Assembly: GCF_024300625.1 (NCBI RefSeq) | Contig: NZ_CP101322.1 | Location: 943,992-1,007,991, forward strand | Source of the DNA: Halovivax gelatinilyticus | GTDB lineage: Archaea; Halobacteriota; Halobacteria; Halobacteriales; Natrialbaceae | Length of the DNA stretch: 64,000 bases | Reading direction: 5' to 3' | Part shown: positions 16,702 to 17,955 of the stretch, piece by piece | Layout of the letters: every line of letters starts with the position of its first letter | Numbering within the stretch: the stretch's first letter is position 1 | Program-made: the position numbers and the translations under genes | The notes under the pieces: generated by a model | Told to the model about the DNA's origin: nothing | The model's input: only the letters and a program-made list of their open reading frames with translations | The model's database searches: none

Positions 16702-16774
16702 GCCCGGGTGGTGTAGTGGCCCATCATACGACCCTGTCACGGTCGTGACGCGGGTTCAAATCCCGCCTCGGGCG
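16702..16774 (+). tRNA. tRNA-Asp (anticodon GTC)
   Basis: Full cloverleaf of 73 nt without intron and without encoded CCA. The acceptor stem GCCCGGG pairs with CTCGGGC with one G-U pair; the anticodon stem CGACC/GGTCG closes loop CTGTCAC with anticodon GTC; the T arm is GCGGG-TTCAAAT-CCCGC (16750-16766); the discriminator base is G at 16774. A nuclease gene follows 220 bases downstream. Confidence 0.97.
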
Positions 16775-16776
16775 CT

Positions 16777-16838
16777 TCTTCGATTTCTACTCCATGAGCG
16801 ACCGGCGTAGCCGTGTCGCGAACACCCGAAATCGAAGA
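16777..16838. repeat. Perfect 11-bp inverted repeat just after tRNA-Asp
   Basis: TCTTCGATTTC at 16777-16787 is exactly complementary to GAAATCGAAGA at 16828-16838, with a 40-base loop that itself contains GC-rich complementary bits. It starts 3 bases after the tRNA. It could be a tRNA-precursor processing stem or terminator, or the left end of a small mobile element. Confidence 0.6.
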
Positions 16839-16849
16839 GCGGCGAACTA

Positions 16850-16859
16850 GGGATTTGAA
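16850..16859 (-). repeat. Inverted 10-base copy of the tRNA-Asp T arm
   Basis: GGGATTTGAA is the exact reverse complement of TTCAAATCCC in the T loop and stem of tRNA-Asp (16755-16764). Ten bases can match by chance, but T-arm sequence near a tRNA gene is a usual trace of integration or tRNA duplication. The phrase TGAGCGAACGAAGTGAGCG follows at 16869-16887. Confidence 0.4.
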
Positions 16860-16994
16860 TTACGGAACTGAGCGAACGAAGTGAGCGTAGTTCAGGTGGT
16901 CATTTCCCGCCTCGAAAGTCAGTTCCACGAACAACTTCGACGACAACCGGGTGGGTCATGGTTCAAATACAAAGACGAGACAGCAACCGGTACG

Positions 16995-17420
16995 ATGAAT
17001 TCAAAACAGGTCGGGGACGTCACGGAGGTTCGCATTCTAGCCCGATTGATCGCAACGGGTTACTCGGTCGCGATCCCGTACGGAGACAACGATCCATACG
17101 ATTTACTCGTCGATACGGGATCGTCGATTTTGAAGGTACAGTGTAAGACAGGATGGGTAGAAGGCGAGGTAATACGATTCAAAACCGCGAGTAAGACGAC
17201 TTGCGACGGTCAAGTGACGATGGTTGACTACGGCGACAAAATCGATGCATTCGCCGTGTACTGTGAGAGTGAAAACAAGTACTACTGGGTTCCCATTGAC
17301 GATGCCGGCGCGAAGAGTACCTACCTCCGGCTCGCTGAGCCAGCGATCGACCATCCGAGCGTAAACAGAGCCAGTGAGTACACGTTCTCCAGTCAGCTCC
17401 CATCGATCGGGCCCGAATAA
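16995..17420 (+). CDS. PD-(D/E)XK nuclease-like protein (group I intron-associated endonuclease family)
   Basis: A protein of 141 residues from ATG 16995 (MNSKQVGDVTEVRILARL). The layout matches PDDEXK_5, originally described for group I intron endonucleases: a GDVTE helix (E11), then GDNDPYDLLVDTG with the conserved Asp, a short hairpin, and ILKVQCKTGW with Q-x-K in place of E-x-K. Later strands include VTMVDYGDKIDAFAVYC. Such proteins cleave or nick DNA, but many stand-alone archaeal copies are uncharacterised. A longer in-frame start (GTG 16881) would add residues encoded by the repetitive post-tRNA sequence and is unlikely. Codon use is visibly less G/C-biased than neighbours, suggesting transfer. 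No integrase lies nearby. Confidence 0.8.
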   Translation: MNSKQVGDVTEVRILARLIATGYSVAIPYGDNDPYDLLVDTGSSILKVQCKTGWVEGEVIRFKTASKTTCDGQVTMVDYGDKIDAFAVYCESENKYYWVPIDDAGAKSTYLRLAEPAIDHPSVNRASEYTFSSQLPSIGPE

Positions 17421-17496: not shown

Positions 17497-17955
17497 ATGG
17501 CTGACGTTTTCCGGTCGGATAATTCGTGGCCAAAGTGGAAGCAGTTTCAACTGACATATGTGGTCATTGGTACGGCTCACGCAATCGCCGTGCTCTGGGT
17601 TCATAGCTACATTCGCGGTGGCCAGTTCGTCAGAGAGATGGTGGATGCACTCACTTCGTCGTCCGCAATGCTCGTTGTCTACCTCGTCATCGGACTGGGG
17701 ATCGTCGGCTACGCACTCGCACTGACGGTGATCCGACATCACCTTGTGCTCCCTGCAAGCGTCACAACCCTCGCATATGGGTATGCGAGTTACACTAGTT
17801 GGCAATCTTTCTCCGCCGCCCGGGAAGCTAGCGTACAACCGCTGTTAACCTGGCGCACCGACGACATCTATGTATTCGCCTGGTTCATCCCGCTGGCAGG
17901 GATACTACTCTTGAGCTATGTCGAACTACGTGTGAGAGAACTGCTCGCTGAATAG
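17497..17955 (+). CDS. Small multi-pass membrane protein of unknown function
   Basis: A 152-residue protein with about four hydrophobic segments (approximately residues 18-37, 55-78, 80-98 and 124-145) separated by short polar loops, with no family motif I recognise. The ATG at 17497 is fixed by the strong TATA element at 17461-17470. Base composition resembles the adjacent nuclease gene more than the ribosomal or polymerase genes. It may belong to the same acquired segment, but the separate promoter argues against an operon. Confidence 0.7.
   Translation: MADVFRSDNSWPKWKQFQLTYVVIGTAHAIAVLWVHSYIRGGQFVREMVDALTSSSAMLVVYLVIGLGIVGYALALTVIRHHLVLPASVTTLAYGYASYTSWQSFSAAREASVQPLLTWRTDDIYVFAWFIPLAGILLLSYVELRVRELLAE

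Follow-up and report, generated by a model that had tools for sequence, protein, structure and literature searches.

A small gene behind a tRNA-Asp gene of the haloarchaeon Halovivax gelatinilyticus belongs to the I-Ssp6803I (PDDEXK_5) family and probably encodes a free-standing homing endonuclease that has specialised on a single tRNA gene. It lies in the window analysed here, a 64,000-nt stretch of DNA (NCBI RefSeq assembly GCF_024300625.1, contig NZ_CP101322.1, positions 943,992 to 1,007,991 of the forward strand) from a 3.70-Mb genome that we number G000. This reading draws on the linkage of homologous nuclease genes to tRNA genes, on the near constancy of the linked tRNA within nuclease clades, and on the joint switching of nuclease clade and tRNA anticodon-stem allele. 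The features on which the argument turns are the following:

16702..16775, + strand: tRNA-Asp(GTC) gene found by ARAGORN, the presumed partner tRNA, of the kind that adjoins all nucleases of clades A, B and C
16729..16745, + strand: default-allele anticodon arm CGACC-CTGTCAC-GGTCG, read from the sequence and compared by clade below; predicted region of cleavage, by analogy with I-Ssp6803I
16995..17420, + strand: PDDEXK_5 nuclease of 141 aa, clade B, by Pfam, the match to I-Ssp6803I and the conserved residues E11, D36, Q49 and K51, all present

The second stem pair of this tRNA-Asp (28:42), the one that switches with the nuclease clade, is formed by G 16730 and C 16744.

The window gene encodes a PDDEXK_5 nuclease under purifying selection

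The initial annotation, made from the letters alone, had described at this locus a tRNA-Asp gene, an exact 11-bp inverted repeat, an inverted copy of part of the tRNA, a GAGCG phrase and a PDDEXK_5-type nuclease gene with less G/C-biased codon use; all of these were recovered at the same positions. In scans of the window's proteins against the Pfam, NCBIfam and PHROG families, the nuclease open reading frame (ORF) scored 157 bits on the Pfam profile PF11645 (PDDEXK_5), whose cut-off is 26. I-Ssp6803I is the closest solved protein by sequence (E 1e-7), and its structure, PDB 2ost, is the top fold match (E 1e-10) to the predicted model, which has a predicted local distance difference test (pLDDT) score of 86. 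Across 39 sequences the active-site residues D36, Q49 and K51 are invariant and E11 is nearly so. By profile, fold and the E/D/Q-x-K residues, the window gene thus belongs to the I-Ssp6803I-like PD-(D/E)XK nucleases. Its deviating composition was also borne out: G+C is 0.51–0.53 over the gene and ~0.62 in the rpo genes upstream.

PF11645 is found in 143 of the 293 genomes of the order, in a single copy in the window's genome, and a homologue with 61% identity occurs in Halovivax sp. KZCA124. Presence of the nuclease is patchy across genomes, and many copies are decayed. The nuclease gene is under purifying selection: the ratio of nonsynonymous to synonymous substitution rates (dN/dS) is 0.02–0.33 in 10 of 11 computable pairs, the eleventh being the nearly identical pair L123/L124 with 0.64, and the corresponding ratio of differences (pN/pS) between the nucleases of G000 and the congener G004 is 0.17. 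Two routes of spread were considered and rejected. Plasmids offered just weak partial matches to the window's clade (on four haloarchaeal plasmids), and haloarchaeal tailed viruses carry only ~31%-identical relatives.

The window ORF is free-standing and is not enclosed in an intron of its presumed target. A group I intron at this locus was rejected, as Rfam matched the tRNA only and the tRNA-Asp is intact. No recognisable integrase was found among the window ORFs read, and no tRNA 3′ copy lies to the right of the nuclease within the window.

Nuclease homologues are linked to tRNA genes, nearly one tRNA to a clade

The initial annotation had proposed counting how many homologues lie close to a tRNA gene. 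Among the 108 best haloarchaeal homologues whose loci were fetched, which stand at the upper end of the match scores, 104 have a tRNA gene within 600 bp, on the same strand in 104 of 104 cases; about 1% would be expected by chance, assuming ~50 tRNA genes in 3.8 Mb. The exceptions are L079 (1152 bp), L135 (760 bp), L141 (853 bp) and L078, which has none. A tRNA-Asp pattern served to retrieve 26 of the 108 loci, which therefore count less for linkage. The same linkage is seen from L057 onward, where retrieval was through the nuclease only, and it was repeated on named genomes partly overlapping with the first set. Eleven loci that appeared in a first scan to be homologues without a tRNA were resolved as follows: nine adjoin an intron-bearing tRNA once ARAGORN allows introns, at L116 the ORF is located within a tRNA-Lys intron, and only L078 is without a tRNA. 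The latter is a Pro-clade nuclease behind an ORF that, judged by eye, resembles a tyrosine integrase. Beyond Halobacteria, two Pacearchaeota and one Parcubacterium have the ORF next to tRNA-Thr(TGT).

On the protein tree, members of a clade nearly always share their linked tRNA. Three clades (A, B and C) adjoin tRNA-Asp and one adjoins tRNA-Pro(TGG); one further clade adjoins Lys(TTT), Arg(TCT) and Met/Asn tRNAs, and the nucleases next to Ser(TGA) form a pair. Directly behind the first nuclease, loci of the Pro(TGG) clade often have another nuclease-like ORF or domain, which is more diverged (L071, L072, L077, L090, L108, L125, L129, L132, L133 and L136).

Nuclease clade and tRNA-Asp anticodon-stem allele switch together

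The tRNA-Asp anticodon stem CGACC/GGTCG is present in 174 of the 293 genomes and CAACC/GGTTG in 89, with two genomes holding both. All 31 nucleases of clades A (13) and B (18) go with the default CGACC/GGTCG. In clade C (46 nucleases) the stem is non-default in 45, mostly with a 28:42 A-U pair: CAACC in 43, CGGCC/GGCCG in L102 and TCACC/GGTGA in L131, CGACC being found only in L079. Ten genera contain both kinds (g1, g2, g5, g18, g19, g39, g48, g49, g57 and g59), and in 10 of 10 the clade and the allele switch together (sign test, p ~0.002); this is the contrast among our allele tests that takes relatedness into account. In the window's own genus, the CAACC allele and a clade C nuclease occur only in G003, at the rpo-linked locus that its congeners share. 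Both alleles are present together in G166, without a PF11645 match, and in G182, with a remnant only; at the G182 locus (L038), this remnant is what is left of the nuclease between the two tRNA-Asp genes. Carriers differ in allele from non-carriers for clade C and for the Pro and Lys clades; the difference is absent for clade B, to which the window gene belongs.

Stem changes and introns accompany nucleases at other tRNA genes

For tRNA-Pro(TGG) the common stem is CGGGC/GCCCG, with classes assigned by hand. Among the matches listed for families f5, f6 and f12 plus G289, the stem is non-default in 15 of 16 carriers and in 9 of 46 others (Fisher test, 2e-7, kinship ignored).

Nucleases of the Lys clade lie behind tRNA-Lys(TTT) genes that have a short anticodon-loop intron (19–39 nt by ARAGORN), and Arg carriers likewise have an anticodon-loop intron. 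The 3′ end GAAGACA is common to the Lys and Arg introns, those without an ORF included. An intronless Lys(TTT) gene is present in most genomes and in 0 of 9 counted carriers, two of which (G133 and G187) were counted from a second match, without a fetched locus. At L116 (2205–2731) the PDDEXK_5 ORF itself fills a 451-nt anticodon-loop intron of an archaeal tRNA-Lys(TTT), so that this relative of the window gene is encoded within an intron of a tRNA gene.

Relatives on phage contigs lie in tRNA arrays, several of them within apparent tRNA interruptions of 429–483 nt, in which Rfam matched no group I intron. Five IMG/VR contigs (L257, L258, L261, L263 and L265) have the ORF within phage tRNA genes, with little non-coding sequence left for a group I intron.

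An insertion in a congener defines a short moving unit

Comparison of the congeneric genomes G004 and G001 revealed a 503-bp nuclease-bearing insertion in the former against an empty site in the latter, located behind the array of repeats that follows tRNA-Asp (described in the last section). It is flanked by a 15-bp direct repeat, CAGGGCACAGCCGAC, which is single in G001 (14 of 15 bases) and unrelated to the tRNA. The ORF thus makes up nearly all of what moved in this instance. When the two closest carriers, G000 and G004, were compared by eye, no conserved sequence was found around the nuclease outside the ORF.

A homing model and its alternatives

We propose that each nuclease clade recognises its tRNA gene by the anticodon arm, a pseudo-palindrome, and would cut any allele other than the resident one. 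A break made in the recipient would then be repaired from donor DNA, and the nuclease gene would be copied in together with the neighbouring uncut tRNA allele, that is, by intronless homing with co-conversion. The carrier's own tRNA gene may be spared through compensatory stem changes or an anticodon-loop intron, and carriers would be safe because that gene is no substrate. The predicted substrate of the window's clade B nuclease is a non-default tRNA-Asp allele, for instance the one with 28:42 A-U or another rarer one. The self-spreading, tRNA-targeting element suggested by the initial annotation survives here in part: the data are best explained by mobility directed at tRNA genes, and the repeats fall outside it. 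A broader version, which we advance tentatively and would not yet call probable, is that PDDEXK_5 nucleases act as gene drives on essential tRNA genes, with stem changes and anticodon-loop introns as escape alleles; the opposed Asp clades (A and B against C) would then hold two alleles in balance.

Several observations weigh against this proposal. Clades A and B, the window gene included, adjoin the commonest tRNA-Asp allele, and an explanation by an unusual resident allele therefore fails for them; for the same reason the clade B substrate is a prediction, in fact a guess, and the weak point of the model. Thirty-one genomes have the A-U allele and no nuclease, and would have to be relics or to have changed independently. 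Family f4 often has non-default Pro stems with no known Pro nuclease; the Pro association is therefore not universal. The nuclease of G289 adjoins a default-stem tRNA-Pro. The lowest-scoring haloarchaeal subfamily is mostly unlinked to tRNA genes (L237–L239 and L241), as are several homologues in Acidobacteria. The data show family membership, linkage to tRNA genes, the pairing of nuclease clades with tRNA species and with alleles, a copy embedded in an intron, purifying selection and one empty site; cleavage, its specificity, co-conversion and drive are steps that we infer.

Among the alternatives, a role in defence, also raised by the initial annotation, is the likeliest, although we regard it as unlikely. 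Such a nuclease would act on viruses and integrative elements entering the cell, cutting their tRNA genes or attachment sites derived from tRNA genes where these differ from the host allele, which would be spared. Since this requires the same allele discrimination, it fits the linkage and the co-segregation as well, and both haloarchaeal tailed viruses and phage contigs rich in tRNA genes exist. Yet relatives sit in phage tRNA arrays and within tRNA genes, as expected of mobile genes, presence is patchy with many decayed copies, and the window gene stands alone without a defence neighbourhood (PADLOC was not searched). More improbable still is a domesticated tRNA amplifier, in which breaks near tRNA-Asp would promote its duplication and raise its dosage for the aspartate-rich proteins of haloarchaea. 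The 28 loci with tRNA-Asp on both sides of the nuclease, the many with 2–4 tRNA-Asp copies, and the similar amplification of tRNA genes by the phage nuclease SegB (PMC13096335) would agree with it. However, many nuclease-less genomes also have tandem tRNA-Asp genes, and both the allele co-segregation and the Lys, Arg and Pro clades are left unexplained.

We give an equally low probability to the nuclease being a passenger that settled at an insertion hotspot without any business with the tRNA sequence. tRNA genes are common integration sites that would attract insertions of every kind, and the G004 insertion lies behind the array, outside the tRNA; but a passenger would not be expected to keep to a single tRNA species per clade and a constant strand, to switch jointly with the stem allele in ten genera, or to reside in an anticodon-loop intron. 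The initial annotation had, finally, joined the inverted repeats, the inverted T arm, the GAGCG phrase and the nuclease into one compact mobile element. These parts are adjacent in the window. Nevertheless, G001 and G002 have the array and lack the nuclease, similar units lie behind other kinds of tRNA, and the nuclease insertion of G004, as its ends indicate, starts outside the array. The initial annotation had itself set nuclease-less strains with these repeats as a refutation, and for this part G001 and G002 present just that. By these comparisons a single element of repeats and nuclease is already refuted in the window's genus.

Relation to known systems

The window gene resembles I-Ssp6803I of Synechocystis (PDB 2ost) in Pfam family, fold, length and active-site residues, as well as in its tRNA gene context and, presumably, the anticodon region involved. 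It differs in being free-standing behind an intact, intronless tRNA-Asp, with a predicted target, whereas I-Ssp6803I is encoded in a group I intron of tRNA-fMet. With T4 SegB and other free-standing phage homing endonucleases it shares the position near tRNA genes and, in our model, spread with the neighbouring tRNA region; SegB-type enzymes, however, have a GIY-YIG fold, reside in phage genomes and show no tRNA isotype preference (PMC13096335), unlike the PD-(D/E)XK nucleases of archaeal chromosomes with one tRNA per clade described here.

Free-standing nucleases of phages are known to home without an intron, near tRNA genes as well (PMC2988022, PMC13096335), and the statement of the initial annotation that the mechanism would be new was thus too strong. 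Both components have been described, namely homing nucleases of the PD-(D/E)XK type with tRNA anticodons as targets, and free-standing homing in the neighbourhood of tRNA genes (PMC1995217, PMC2988022, PMC13096335). The open-licence literature searched yielded no account of PD-(D/E)XK nucleases linked to tRNA genes in archaea, nor of the union of both components in archaeal chromosomes with one tRNA per clade and matched anticodon-arm alleles or introns. The hypothesis of Randau and Soll, as cited in PMC4390854 and PMC4090602, holds that interruptions of archaeal tRNA genes protect against mobile elements. Their proposal was about the integration of viruses and plasmids, whereas our candidate attacker is a nuclease that, in one case, is itself encoded within such an intron.

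If the proposal is correct, essential archaeal tRNA genes are under attack by dedicated selfish nucleases. This would provide a testable cause for coordinated anticodon-stem changes between close relatives and for archaeal anticodon-loop introns, both poorly explained, and would yield natural nucleases that tell alleles apart, together with their own resistant and sensitive substrates.

Tandem arrays of tRNA 3′ halves are a separate feature

Behind tRNA-Asp the window has a single unit of a repeat array, whose first tRNA 3′ half is that of the gene itself:

16753..16773, + strand: tRNA 3′ half, T loop to acceptor, first array copy; repeated exactly behind tRNA-Asp in congeners
16776..16899, + strand: rest of the unit, with a hairpin (16777–16838), an inverted T loop (16850–16859) and GAGCGAACGAAGTGAGCG (16870–16887)
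16900..16914, + strand: degenerate direct copy of the tRNA 3′ half at the unit's right end, 13 of 15 bases identical to 16756–16770

The hairpin is the exact 11-bp inverted repeat (arms 16777–16787 and 16828–16838), and GGGATTTGAA at 16850–16859 repeats tRNA bases 16755–16764 exactly, in inverted orientation. The repeats listed in the initial annotation are therefore real; a third copy, the degenerate one of the tRNA 3′ half at 16900–16914, had been overlooked.

In four congeneric genomes the 21-bp tRNA-Asp 3′ half, GGTTCAAATCCCGCCTCGGGC, recurs in exact tandem copies every 144–160 bp behind the gene, with two units in G001, three in G002, two in G003 and one in G004. Besides a new tRNA 3′ half, each unit has a hairpin, an inverted T loop and a GAGCG-like phrase, and the window unit closely resembles unit 1 of G001. 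As all four congeners carry like units behind tRNA-Asp, the degenerate copy in the window is more than chance. Units of the same plan were found behind Thr(CGT), Thr(TGT), Gly(GCC, TCC and CCC), Val(GAC) and Ile(GAT) tRNAs and, where read, carry that tRNA's own sequence. Given these units and the nuclease-less arrays of G001 and G002, the repeats are not part of the nuclease element: repeats and nuclease are two independent features.

Tandem repeats containing the tRNA 3′ end are also present behind the tyrT tRNA gene of E. coli. The resemblance is to the window's 16776–16914 unit only, and the units described here differ in being archaeal, in lying behind many tRNAs and in having an inverted T loop and two hairpins. 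No description of such tRNA-3′-half arrays was found in the open-licence literature searched.

Directly 3′ of the nuclease is a small ORF (17497–17955) for a hydrophobic 152-aa protein, with no Pfam match and insignificant NCBIfam and PHROG matches; in the congeners read, other sequence lies 3′ of the array or nuclease. Across loci (window 16753–16914; L023, L024, L025 and L026; L013, L015–L017 and L019; L276–L278, L281 and L283), the arrays have units of ~113–160 bp with two hairpins and the inverted T loop, behind Asp, Thr, Gly, Val and Ile tRNAs, and the units look shuffled between arrays and species.
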